DNA of 64,000 nucleotides, taken from positions 2,803,001 to 2,867,000 of the forward strand of contig NZ_CP064356.1 of the NCBI RefSeq assembly GCF_018141545.1. Direction: 5' to 3'. This DNA comes from Miltoncostaea oceani (GTDB lineage: Bacteria; Actinomycetota; Thermoleophilia; Miltoncostaeales; Miltoncostaeaceae). A model generated the notes under the pieces. The model made no database searches. It was not told the origin of the DNA and worked only from the letters and a program-made list of their open reading frames with translations. Each line of letters starts with the position of its first letter. The first letter of the stretch is position 1. The translations under genes were made by a program, and so were the position numbers. This document shows, one piece after another, positions 13,446 through 47,834 of this stretch.

Positions 13446-13580
13446 CCATGGCGCACGTGAGCCTCGGCTCGAGGTCCAAGTGGACCATCCCGAAAGCCCA
13501 AGTGAGCCACGGCGCCGGGTCCAAGTGGACCATCTGAAAGGCCCAAGTGGACCACGACGCGAGGTCCAATGGACCATGAA
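13446..13580. repeat. GGTCCACTTGGACC-family repeat cluster upstream of rplY
   Basis: Five to six degenerate units read on the minus strand as ATGGTCCACTTGGACC, GTGGTCCACTTGGGCC, GTGGCTCACTTGGGC and similar, spaced about 20-30 bases. The left end has the cap CCATGGCGCACGTG (from 13445) and the right end GGTCCAATGGACCAT (about 13565-13578). The cluster fills the space between the MMPL gene and rplY, which otherwise holds nothing I can identify apart from the rplY leader. Confidence 0.75.
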
Positions 13581-19334: not shown

Positions 19335-19408
19335 TGGCTGGGGCGGGAGGATTCGAACCTCCGGTCGCGGGACCAAAACCCGCTGCCTTACCCCTTGGCT
19401 ACGCCCCA
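19335..19408 (-). tRNA. tRNA-Gln (TTG anticodon), CCA encoded
   Basis: Reading down from 19408, the sequence begins TGGGGCGTAGCCAAGGGG, has anticodon stem GCGGG/CCCGC enclosing the loop TTTTGGT (anticodon TTG), the T-arm GGTTCGAATCC, the acceptor CGCCCCA, discriminator G and a templated CCA at 19335-19337. The acceptor stem is a full 7 bp. It reads CAA codons and by wobble CAG. Its position directly before glmU is shared by other Actinomycetota. Confidence 0.96.
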
Positions 19409-20861: not shown

Positions 20862-21016
20862 ACGGGGTCGGTGCGAGGGAAGCCGGTGGGAATCCGGCGC
20901 GGTCGCGCCACTGTGATCCGGGAGCGAGCCCGCACGACATCGCGTCAGCCACTGGGGGGACCTGGGAAGGCCGCGGGCCTCGCGTTCACACCGGACGAGC
21001 CAGGAGACCTGCTCCG
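20862..21016 (+). ncRNA. Cobalamin (adenosylcobalamin-type) riboswitch
   Basis: The conserved B12-element pieces appear in order: GGTGCGAGGGAAGCCGGTG (about 20870-20888), GGGAATCCGG, GCGGTCGCGCCACTGTGA (B12-box-like core with GCCACTG), GTCAGCCACTGGGG, CCTGGGAAGG and the closing GACGAGCCAGGAGACCTGC (to about 21013). Binding of cobalamin normally reduces expression downstream. Between it and the GTG start, CCTC (21032-21035 region) could pair with the GAGG Shine-Dalgarno just before the start, which suggests translational control. The exact 5' limit is approximate. Confidence 0.93.
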
Positions 21017-29803: not shown

Positions 29804-29900
29804 TTCGGCCCCCGACCCGGTCGAGGTGCGTCCTCGACAGGGTCGATCCGCGTCCCGCGCCCCCCGCCCGATGCGGGGACCGCGCAGAAACTCTCGCGAT

Positions 29901-30323
29901 ATGGGGTACGAACAGATGCACCACCAGACCCAGATCCTGGTCCTCGGCTCCGACGGGGCCGGCCGCTCCGCCCTCGAGGAGACCCTCACCCGGCTCGGCT
30001 ACGTCGTGCTCGGCAGCGAGGCCTCGATGGACGAGACCCCGCCCGCCTCGGGCGACATCGTGATGCTCGACCTCCGCGGCGACGACGCCGACTGGCGCCA
30101 GCTCGCCGACGGCCTGCACGCCGACGACCGGCCGATGATGATCATCTCCGAGCGCCCCCGGCGCCTGGTGCGCTCCCTCTCGGGCCGCGCCGCCTGCACG
30201 ATGGTGATGACCGGCGCCGAGTCCGACGCCGGCTACCGCGTCGCGCTGTCGGTGTGCTCCGCGCTCCGCCAGAACGAGGAGGCGCGTCGCTCGCGTCGTG
30301 GGATCCGCGTCGCGGCACTGTGA
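29901..30323 (+). CDS. Degenerate CheY-like receiver domain protein
   Basis: A 140-residue stand-alone alpha/beta protein with the pattern of a response-regulator receiver: ILVLGSDGAGRSALEETL (strand 1 and helix 1), DIVMLDLRGDDADW (strand 3 with the putative phosphoacceptor Asp), and RPMMIISERP (strand 4 with Ser). The acidic pair at the end of strand 1 is reduced to one Asp, and the conserved Lys of strand 5 is absent, so phosphorylation may not be normal. The frame is open upstream to 29598; ATG 29901 is chosen because the fold starts there. No histidine kinase is adjacent. The region after it to 30640 contains no gene I can support. Confidence 0.65.
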   Translation: MGYEQMHHQTQILVLGSDGAGRSALEETLTRLGYVVLGSEASMDETPPASGDIVMLDLRGDDADWRQLADGLHADDRPMMIISERPRRLVRSLSGRAACTMVMTGAESDAGYRVALSVCSALRQNEEARRSRRGIRVAAL

Positions 30324-30648
30324 GGGGCGTCGAGGTCCGGACCTCGACTGACGGACTGCTGTGCCGACGGGCTCGGTGCGCACGTCGCAGGGATGCGGCG
30401 GACGGACCAGGAGGAGCGTCCCGCTCCGAGCCCGTCGGTGGAGGAGGGACGACGCGGGGAACCCGCCCCGCGTGATCGACGGAGCGGGTCACCCGCTCCC
30501 CCCGATCGACGGAGGCGCCCCGCCGGCGTGAACACCCCGCCGGCGCGGACGAGGAGCCCGCGCGGCCCCCGTCCCCCGTGGCGCTTCGACCGCTCTGACG
30601 ACGTCGCCCCGGGGTGATCGGGCGACGGTCCCCGGCGCCCCCGCGCCG

Positions 30649-31104
30649 TCCATGGCGCAATTGGCCGTCGCCCCGAGGTCCATTTGGACCGAGGAGCCGT
30701 CTCGGCCCGCCCGGCGGCCACTCGGCCGGGAGGTCGAGGTCCGCTTGGCCGAAGAGCCGAGGTTCACTTGGACCGGGCATCGAGGTCCACTTGGACCGAG
30801 AAGCCGACGTCCACTTGGCCAGAGCGCCGAGGTCCACTTGGACCGAGAAGCCGACGTCCACTTGGCCGGAGCGCCGAGGTCCACTTGGACCGAGGAGCCG
30901 ACGTCCACTTGGCCGGCGGGTCGAGGTCCACTTGGACCGAGGAGCCGAAGTCCAGGTGGCCGAAGAGCCGAGGTCCACTTGGTCGCGGGGTCGAGGTCCA
31001 CTTGGCCGGAGCATCGAGGTCCACTTGGCCGGCGGGTCGAGGTCCACTTGGCCGGAGCATCGAGGTCCACTTGGACGAGGAGCGATGGTCCAATTGGATC
31101 ATCG
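30649..31104. repeat. Tandem array of 23/24-bp GGTCCACTTGGACC-type repeats
   Basis: About 15 contiguous units (30735-31083), with degenerate units before and after. Units read GAGGTCCACTTGGACCGAGAAGCC (24 bp) or GACGTCCACTTGGCCGGAGC-type (23 bp); the two kinds alternate over much of the array, giving a 47-bp higher-order period. The core GGTCCA-CT-TGGACC is a near-perfect inverted repeat. The array opens with CCATGGCGCAATTGG (30649-) and closes with GGTCCAATTGGATCAT (31087-31103). It lies between the receiver-like gene and the VOC gene; the space 30324-30648 shows no gene or motif I can name. Confidence 0.92.
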
Positions 31105-31205
31105 ACGGAACCGGGGAGCCGGGGGGACCGACGTAAAGGCAACGCGGGAAGGGCCGTCACGACGTCCCCGGGGATCCGTCCGCGGCGGCTGACTAGACTT
31201 GCCGC

Positions 31206-31559
31206 ATGAGCCTCTTCTCCGGCGTCGACGTCGTCTTCTACCAGGTGTGCTCGATGGACAAGGCGGTCGCCTTCTACTCGGGCATCCTCGGCCTCGAGGT
31301 GCTCCGGCGGGAGGGCAACGACTGGACCGAGCTGCAGGCCGGCGACACCGTCATCGCCCTGTCGGGGGAGCTCGCGACGCGGCCGCACCAGGGGGGCGCG
31401 ACGGTCATCCTGCGCACCGACGACGTCGAGGCCGTCGACCGGCACCTCGGGGAGAACGACGTCCAGCGCGGCCGGATCGAGGACATGGGCGGCGCCCGGA
31501 TGCTCCAGTTCTTCGACCCCGACGGCAACGAGATCGTGGCGATCCAGCCCGACGCATAG
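31206..31559 (+). CDS. VOC-superfamily (glyoxalase/bleomycin-resistance fold) protein
   Basis: A 117-residue single-module vicinal-oxygen-chelate protein: VDVVFYQVCSMDKAVAFYSGILGL at the start (read in pieces), central strand DTVIALSGE, and the C-terminal LQFFDPDGNEIVAIQP with the usual metal Glu. VOC proteins are dimers that bind a divalent metal and act on varied small molecules. The first-strand His common in metalloenzymes is not obvious (Tyr/Gln at VFYQV), so catalysis is uncertain. ATG 31206 with good spacing after the repeat array. Not in an operon; the next gene is convergent. Confidence 0.87.
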   Translation: MSLFSGVDVVFYQVCSMDKAVAFYSGILGLEVLRREGNDWTELQAGDTVIALSGELATRPHQGGATVILRTDDVEAVDRHLGENDVQRGRIEDMGGARMLQFFDPDGNEIVAIQPDA

Positions 31560-31583
31560 CGGGCGGCGGGCGGGGGCGTCGCG

Positions 31584-31955
31584 TCAGCGACGGGCGGCGG
31601 CGACCTCCGCCATGAACGCATCGGGGTCCTCGACCCCGACCCCGATCCGGGCGGTCGTCCACGACAGCGGCGCGCGGACCTTCATCGGCTCCGCCAGCTC
31701 CAGCACCACCATCGACCCGGGCGCGCCGACGAAGGCGACCATCCCCTTCGTGATCCTCGCGCCGACACCGCCCCAGAACGGCCAGTCGAACGTGCCGACG
31801 CGGTCGATCCGGGCGACGGGGACGTCCGCGCGCCCGTGGAGCCCCATCCGCACCCGCACCTCCCCTCCGCCGACCTCGGCGAACGGGCGGTCCGGTGACA
31901 GCGGCAACAGGAACGGCACCGCCCACCACACGCGTCGTATCGGGTAGCTCGTCAC
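31584..31955 (-). CDS. Hypothetical protein with PH-like strand pattern
   Basis: A 123-residue soluble protein rich in beta strands: VWWAVPFLLPLSPDRPFAEV, VRVRMGLHGRADVPVARIDRV and GTFDWPFWGGVGARITKGMV, ending LSWTTARIGVGVEDPDAFMAEV. The pattern of Trp in FDWPFWGGVGARI and the final VEDPDAFM helix resembles bacterial PH-like (DUF304-type) domains or small actinobacterial proteins of that kind, but the match is by eye only. It is convergent with the VOC gene and divergent from htpX. No residues suggest enzymatic activity. Confidence 0.6.
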   Translation of the reverse strand: MTSYPIRRVWWAVPFLLPLSPDRPFAEVGGGEVRVRMGLHGRADVPVARIDRVGTFDWPFWGGVGARITKGMVAFVGAPGSMVVLELAEPMKVRAPLSWTTARIGVGVEDPDAFMAEVAAARR

Positions 31956-46469: not shown

Positions 46470-47834
46470 TCAGTGGGCGAAAGCGACCTCGAGGGCCTCC
46501 CGGACCCCCGCGACCGCGTGTACGTCTCGTGGAGCCGGCGCCGAGGCGTCGCCTCCGGTCTCGCGCGGCGGCGTCACCGCGACATCGATGCCGTGGGACG
46601 CCATCGCGGCCAGCCGGCGCACACCGTGCCCGGAGGGCCGGATCGCGCCGGTCAGCCCGAGCTCGCCGAACGCGGCGGAGCCGGGCGCCAGCGGCACCCC
46701 GCGGTGGGCGCTGGTGATGGCCAGCGCCATGGCGAGGTCGGCCGCCGGATCGAGCGCCCGGGCGCCACCCGCGACGCTCACGAACACGTCCGCGTCGCCG
46801 AGGCGCACGCCGGCGTGGCGCGATAGCACGGCGATCACCTGGGCGAGCCGGGTGCGGTCGACGCCGATGGCCACCCGCCGCGGGGGCACGATCTCGGTGG
46901 GGCCCACCAGCGCCTGCACCTCGACGAGCAGCGAGCGGCTGCCCTCGACGGCGGGGAACACGCACGACCCGACGCGCTCGCCGGCCTCGGCGAGGTACAA
47001 CCGGGTCGGGTCCTCGACCGACTCGAGCCCCGAGGCGCGCATCTCGAAGATGCCGGTCTCGTTCGTCGAGCCGAAGCGGTTCTTGGTGGCGCGCAGCACG
47101 CGGTGCGCGCGCATGTCGTCGCCCTCGAAGGAGAGGACGCAGTCGACGAGGTGCTCCAGGGTGCGGGGGCCGGCGAGGCCGCCGTCCTTCGTCACCTGCC
47201 CGACGAGCAGCACCGTCACCCCGCGCTCCTTCGCGGCGCGCATCAGCTCGACGGTGACCGCGCGGACCTGGTTCGGGGCGCCGGGGGCGCCCTCCACGGC
47301 GTCCGAGTGGAGCGTCTGGACGGAGTCGATGGCGACGACGTCGGGCGTGTGGGCCTCGATCGCCGCGAGCACGCCCTCGAGGCGCGTCTCGGCGAGCACC
47401 TGGATCTGCCCGCACTCGCAGGTGAGGCGCTCCGCGCGGCCGCGCACCTGGATCGCCGACTCCTCGCCGGTGACCAGCATCGCGCGCCCGGCGAGGGCGA
47501 CCCCGGCGAGGGCCTGCAGGACGAGGGTGCTCTTGCCGATGCCGGGCTCGCCGCCCAGCAGGACGAGGGAGCCCGGCACGAGGCCGCCGCCCAGCACCCG
47601 GTCGAGCTCGCCGATCCCCGTCCGGCGGCGCGCGGGGGCGTCGTCGGTGAGGTCGGCCAGCCGGGTGACGACGGGCACGGGACCGATCGGCCCGCGACGG
47701 GGGGAGGGTGCGGGGGTGGCCTCCTCGGCCACGGTCCCCCACTCACCGCACGTCGCGCACCGCCCGACCCAACGCGGGGCCTGCGCACCGCAGGCCCCGC
47801 AGGAATAGACGACCCGTGGACGCGTCTGCGCCAC
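46470..47834 (-). CDS. radA: DNA repair protein RadA
   Basis: A RecA-related branch-migration ATPase of homologous recombination, 454 residues. N-terminal zinc finger CGACGAQAPRWVGRCATCGEW (9-29, read as two CxxC pairs), Walker A GGEPGIGKST (about 92-101), the RadA-specific KNRFG in ATKNRFGSTNE, and a C-terminal Lon-like domain (about 290-450). GTG 47834 is chosen because it opens the zinc finger; the frame is open above as clpC shadow. It lies 20 bases from clpC and 18 from carD. Confidence 0.95.
   Translation of the reverse strand: MAQTRPRVVYSCGACGAQAPRWVGRCATCGEWGTVAEEATPAPSPRRGPIGPVPVVTRLADLTDDAPARRRTGIGELDRVLGGGLVPGSLVLLGGEPGIGKSTLVLQALAGVALAGRAMLVTGEESAIQVRGRAERLTCECGQIQVLAETRLEGVLAAIEAHTPDVVAIDSVQTLHSDAVEGAPGAPNQVRAVTVELMRAAKERGVTVLLVGQVTKDGGLAGPRTLEHLVDCVLSFEGDDMRAHRVLRATKNRFGSTNETGIFEMRASGLESVEDPTRLYLAEAGERVGSCVFPAVEGSRSLLVEVQALVGPTEIVPPRRVAIGVDRTRLAQVIAVLSRHAGVRLGDADVFVSVAGGARALDPAADLAMALAITSAHRGVPLAPGSAAFGELGLTGAIRPSGHGVRRLAAMASHGIDVAVTPPRETGGDASAPAPRDVHAVAGVREALEVAFAH

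Follow-up and report, generated by a model that had tools for sequence, protein, structure and literature searches.

A tandem array in Miltoncostaea oceani as a probable member of a genus-specific, REP-like family of dispersed palindromic repeats

The stretch of DNA analyzed here (the window; 64,000 nucleotides of contig NZ_CP064356.1 of Miltoncostaea oceani, positions 2,803,001 to 2,867,000) carries a tandem array of short near-palindromic units. The array is probably a copy of a genus-specific, REP-like dispersed palindromic repeat without a recognizable RAYT, amplified locally by tandem duplication. The family is dispersed over the main chromosome, occurs in no searched genome outside the genus, and takes the form of a doublet with a 23-bp spacing. 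Copies lie inside genes, a common flank accompanies copies in two species, orthologous sites differ in presence and absence, and tandem units stand in register. The spreading unit is probably a doublet of two GGTCCRNNYGGACC whose starts are 23 bp apart. The genus, which belongs to Actinobacteria, was represented by four genomes: the source genome G000 (4.54 Mb in three contigs, the main contig C1 and the contigs C2 and C3) and its relatives G001, G002, and G003.

The initial annotation had described a tandem array of 23/24-bp units at 30649–31104 of the window, and this array proved to be real. TRF called 30718–31097 with periods of both 47 (8.2 copies, 84% matches) and 23 (16.3 copies), and, together with a unit table, the main array was resolved into 16 contiguous 23/24-bp units at 30738–31100 on the plus strand, a strand assigned from the asymmetric CACTTG center. 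The units start at 30738, 30761, 30784, 30808, 30831, 30855, 30878, 30902, 30925, 30949, 30972, 30995, 31018, 31041, 31064, and 31087, and their consensus is CGAGGTCCACTTGG(A/C)C(C/G) followed by a linker. The alternation of two sub-types with a 47-bp period, proposed for the whole array, is strict for eight units at 30784–30972 (plus strand; 24 + 23 bp), where type A is GGTCCACTTGGACC and type B is CGTCCACTTGGCCG with its variants; beyond 30972, the units simply follow one another every 23 bp. Cores 47 bp apart are separated by about 4.5 helical turns, as had been argued for cores on alternate faces of the helix, but neighbors at 23–24 bp (about 2.2 turns) are by the same arithmetic not opposite, and the reasoning applies to no more than half of the units. 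Motif scanning identified an isolated upstream unit, GGTCCATTTGGACC, at 30677–30690, and a degenerate one, CGGCCACTCGGCCG, that keeps the register of the array, at 30715–30728, neither with an assigned strand. The array ends at 31064–31100 in a doublet of GGTCCACTTGGACG and GGTCCAATTGGATC, 23 bp apart and likewise without an assigned strand, which resembles the dispersed doublet form. According to our own gene caller, the array is flanked upstream by a gene of 140 aa without a Pfam match (29901–30323, plus strand) and downstream by a glyoxalase-like gene (PF00903; 31206–31559, plus strand), and the orthologs of both are adjacent in G003. The window contains another, smaller cluster of this family at 13473–13553 on the minus strand (sites at 13473, 13518, and 13540), between genes for ribosomal L25-type and MMPL-type proteins.

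The motif is strongly overrepresented in the window, with 29 occurrences of GTCCANNTGG against 1.42 in shuffled sequences (largest, 4) and 19 of TCCANTTGG against 0.28. Just four contiguous units out of 16 carry the 14-mer GGTCCACTTGGACC in full. The B units, in which two palindromic pairs are broken, are not palindromes, because positions 1–14 are complementary in only 8/16 units and positions 3–12 in only 7/16. The claim of a core more conserved than its linkers was borne out: in 15 contiguous units, the frequency of the majority base averaged 0.900 over the 14 core columns and 0.719 over the nine linker columns, but the final three linker bases (CGA) were kept as well as the core.

A search of the source genome and its relatives, as the initial annotation had suggested, revealed that the motif and its arrays recur across both G000 and the genus. 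The window array is one of approximately two dozen clusters in G000, where GGTCCANNTGGACC has 44 exact sites (18 loci by our count), all on C1, against two for the reversed pattern. Looser patterns add further arrays, for example at 856, 1519, 1627, and 2633 kb, and the longest arrays reach about 20 units. A 464-kb zone around the window contains 36 exact sites, compared with 0–1 for six control palindromes, and 13 clusters; nearly all of its strong noncoding tandem arrays carry the motif, with locus-specific linker variants. Local array growth looks like tandem duplication, since units of one locus have the same variants and units of other loci have different ones. On C2 and C3, there were no exact sites (p = 0.023 for 18 loci), and a 160-kb sample of C2 showed no motif excess. 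C1 begins at dnaA, and a separate parS-like site lies near the C1 end close to dnaA; the family is therefore distinct from the usual ParB sites, with which it shares the form of short chromosomal palindromes but not the clustering at the origin. A terminus- or origin-marking role, prompted by clustering at 2.35–2.88 Mb, was considered and rejected: sites are spread over C1, G003 differs, and the position bias relative to the origin proposed for checking is weak (KS p = 0.039). No strand preference, the other half of that check, was seen by eye. A second, weak DnaA-type domain match (29.3 bits) was also noted at C2:788558–789073 (L007), on this 0.82-Mb contig.

Among the relatives, exact sites and reversed controls numbered 6 and 1 in G001, 8 and 0 in G002, and 11 and 5 in G003, where the excess is clear from a paired pattern (18 matches on both strands vs. 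0 for the control). Each of 57 other genomes gave 0–5 exact matches, about equal to its controls. Additionally, a sequence-only doublet model matched 4 of 399 genomes of the class, which are all four of the genus, and 0 of the 395 class genomes outside it; this search scored 16 candidates per genome, so that per-genome counts are lower bounds and weak copies elsewhere may be missed. A loose three-core pattern run over wider genome contigs was set aside: the matches listed span many unrelated phyla, many at 21-bp spacing, and were read as coding repeats.

The ancestral unit of the family looks like a GGTCCRNNYGGACC doublet at exactly 23 bp, in which each half is near-palindromic and the whole, at 37–43 bp, is again near-palindromic. 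Close pairs of sites were counted in an unselected 400-kb zone of G003: 12 of 27 were spaced at exactly 23 bp, compared with 0/9 and 0/12 for two control palindromes. Of 34 strong sites in that zone, 22 had a partner at this spacing, where other offsets averaged 2.05. One of two control palindromes also gives 13 pairs at 23 bp in the G000 zone, and its similarity to the motif, through which it would detect the arrays, is the probable reason. The exact spacing is found at many loci with varied linkers, and isolated doublets without tandem copies exist. Forty-six doublets from the four species aligned without gaps over 43 columns; these were 46 of 64 rows, and those dropped were tandem copies with almost the same sequence, rows of direct-repeat type, and weak rows (18 in all). 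This choice of rows favors palindromic ones and should thus favor pairing, yet no covariation emerged: 70.0% of cells paired in the long hairpin, compared with 71.0% for shuffled partners, 85.3% compared with 86.6% in the two short hairpins, and 81.4 compared with 81.4 within the G001/G002 subfamily. The conservation of the doublet is one of sequence, not of base pairing.

The genomic context of the family was examined for 66 clusters. Of these, 55 were intergenic (22 convergent, 23 tandem, and 10 divergent), seven fell within called genes, and four were at contig edges; the set includes orthologous G001/G002 pairs, hence is non-independent, and some context labels may be wrong, as they derive from our own codon-usage gene caller. 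Clusters were enriched in convergent regions (22/55 intergenic clusters vs. 68/501 background regions; p = 6e-6 by Fisher's test across all species and 3e-4 for G000 alone), with no significant depletion in divergent regions, and doublets are mostly sited 3' of genes, near stop codons. In-frame copies were found in Pfam-matched genes of four kinds: FliK-like (G000 and G003; its Flg_hook match lies below the curated Pfam cut-off), DUF190 (G001), photolyase-like (G002), and LuxR-type (G003). The labels at window position 47255 and at L162 2280 are not regarded as convincing. The intragenic doublets always lie outside or between the best-matched domain stretches and are translated in different frames. 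In the FliK-like gene (L148 2385–3932 and L156 2327–3853), the doublets occupy the low-complexity middle, so that the linker peptide is shaped by the repeat; in G001, no good doublet lies within the FliK-like gene. The element of the photolyase-like gene is present in both G001 and G002, whereas the G000 gene has 33 nt less at this position. In the DUF190 gene, G000 lacks the element and has a linker of equal length, with no net insertion, which argues against simple insertion there.

Comparison between species points to copying and shows turnover. In G001 and G002, 14 copies at 12 loci, some of them non-independent as orthologous pairs, have in common a non-palindromic flank of about 30 bp on one side, with TGCAGGCGYTTCGGGGNGAT beside the doublet, giving an element of about 70–80 bp with the flank included. 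Such a flank is hard to account for by independent protein sites and easy to account for by copied DNA. No target-site duplication was seen by eye. At loci L252–L265 of these two species, the conserved flank beside the doublet (GAAANCG ... TGCAGGCGCTTCGGGG) might fold into another small hairpin, with weak support (64% of cells paired). The G000 region at 2.48–2.95 Mb is syntenic with 0.75–1.15 Mb of G003 (290 reciprocal best pairs, mean 75% identity). In the orthologous intergenic region of G003, 108 bp long with the flanking orthologs adjacent, the window array is absent and there is no good motif; consequently, the array is not a fixed architectural element. The initial annotation had regarded absence from relatives, combined with a core no better conserved than the linkers, as the mark of neutral duplication; the single sister species examined does lack the array, yet its core is the more conserved part. 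Nine of the 13 G000-zone loci were read at their G003 counterparts, four of the nine from one flanking gene only, and two of the 13 were not readable: seven had no good motif, one had weaker doublets (2559604 in G000, about 1.087 Mb in G003), and one had a cluster (2602320/1040249). Two further clusters are shared between G000 and G003, at 2522088/1116437 and in the FliK copy. In total, 3–4 of the 13 have been retained at the orthologous position, compared with 0.38 expected by chance (p = 0.004 for three), in a statistic that counts intergenic regions as equal targets; orthologous retention was also found between G001 and G003 (L166/L162). The loci of the family therefore turn over fast, with more retention than inert DNA predicts, and this excess gives a hint that, besides the decay of inert repeats, selection or hot spots of insertion are involved.

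Several classes of known elements resemble the family in part. REPs and REPINs are described with the doublet as replicating unit, tandem clusters, and intragenic units (PMC3116915, PMC3733652). REPs are reported to favor convergent and unidirectional regions, and besides the REPs with an unpaired terminal GTAG or CGTC tag, untagged REP-like families are also named (PMC3733652). The present repeats share with them small dispersed palindromes, mainly in doublets, enrichment in convergent regions and 3' of genes, some tandem clusters, and some intragenic copies. They differ in that the halves are themselves near-palindromic, the pitch is fixed at 23 bp, and arrays extend to about 20 units. Furthermore, compensatory changes are termed common in REPINs (PMC3116915), whereas here they do not exceed shuffles, and the Y1_Tnp (RAYT) domain PF01797 was found in 0 of the four genus genomes, with 5 of 14 control genomes positive. 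On these two grounds, we call the family REP-like in behavior but stop short of classifying it among the REPINs. Rickettsia palindromic elements, which insert in frame into protein genes, are given as about 150 bp long with a conserved peptide (PMC10969869); the likeness is in palindromes lying in frame within unrelated protein genes, here four Pfam gene families, but the doublets are 37–43 bp long, occur in varied frames, and are mostly intergenic. Bacterial MITEs, presented as small non-autonomous dispersed DNA (PMC10969869), are similar in size and dispersal and differ in their target-site duplications and autonomous partner, neither of which was found here. None of three spelled family 14-mers occurs in the papers searched, and among these a search on palindromic repeats in Thermoleophilia gave only unrelated ones.

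Taken as a REP-like family, the repeats would move by transposition-like or templated copying, with the doublet as the moving unit and the enzyme supplied in trans, and arrays would be built by slippage or unequal recombination between 23-bp units. Downstream and convergent positions may be those where insertion and growth harm least, and a mild role there, in transcript ends, supercoiling, or host-protein binding, is conceivable. Dispersed doublets, in-gene copies, and common flanks in two species form a pattern typical of small dispersed repeats. Against this reading stand the lack of Y1_Tnp in all four genomes, with no other mobilizing enzyme identified, together with the unexceptional compensatory changes, the unchanged DUF190 linker, the missing target-site duplication, and the excess of retained clusters. 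If the REP-like reading is right, it describes a family with fixed-pitch doublets and in-gene copies but no recognizable RAYT, in a lineage seemingly outside the REP survey PMC3733652, whose main text does not contain the word Actinobacteria. It would then be testable how repeats spread without a known transposase and how doublets become long arrays.

The main rival holds that doublets and arrays are sites for a putative genus-specific DNA-binding protein, whose two dimers would sit 23 bp apart on roughly one face of the helix, the arrays serving as high-occupancy sites for chromosome organization or regulation. We regard this as possible but rather unlikely, and keep it on account of the sequence-level conservation without pairing covariation, the exact 23-bp pitch with varied linkers, and the partial retention of loci (G000/G003, including the FliK-like gene, and G001/G003); the absence of exact sites from C2 and C3 is also in its favor. 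A protein-bound or DNA-structural role in place of slippage, as first proposed, agrees with the conserved sequence and recurring spacing but not with local growth that looks like tandem duplication. Additionally, 7 of 9 orthologous places in G003 lack a good motif, the common non-palindromic flanks in G001 and G002 point to copying, strand and origin biases are absent or weak, and no candidate protein was singled out. A more specific version is doubtful: that a putative chromosome- or gene-regulating protein of the genus recognizes GGTCCRNNYGGACC pairs with a spacing of exactly 23 bp, on the main chromosome and not the second replicon, and that the arrays of the source species are high-occupancy anchors kept by selection at some orthologous loci, even in coding genes. 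Were the binding-site rival true, the family would represent a new lineage-specific chromosome-marking system.

A plain neutral minisatellite, in which arbitrary intergenic sequence grew by slippage without family-level mobility or function, is improbable. Tandem units with locus-specific linkers are what it predicts, and G003 also has unrelated intergenic tandem arrays, but an identical core with a 23-bp pitch recurs at many unlinked loci in four species, including isolated doublets, and the core is conserved above the linkers. Among those unrelated arrays is one with a 76-bp unit (C1:858734–859119, L171; 5.1 copies, 94% match), which adjoins a gene whose G000 ortholog neighbors the array at 2802311, so that different repeats seem to grow at one spot. 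Another, with a 69-bp unit (C1:1019279–1019605, L179; 4.7 copies), lies between convergent genes.

RNA hairpins acting as bidirectional terminators or mRNA stabilizers between convergent genes are very improbable, for although the enrichment near stop codons and between convergent genes and the near-perfect palindromes of 37–50 bp formed by some G003 doublets would suit them, pairing does not covary above shuffles, the window array as single-stranded DNA folds no better than shuffles (z = −1.0), 29900–31600 contains 0 intrinsic terminator-like sites (GC hairpin plus T run), and copies lie within coding genes. Rfam covariance models gave no match at E ≤ 1 in seven element loci. Within the window, the only Rfam matches were a cobalamin riboswitch (RF00174, 74.8 bits) at 20876–21010 on the plus strand and a tRNA, tRNA-Gln (ttg), at 19335–19408 on the minus strand.
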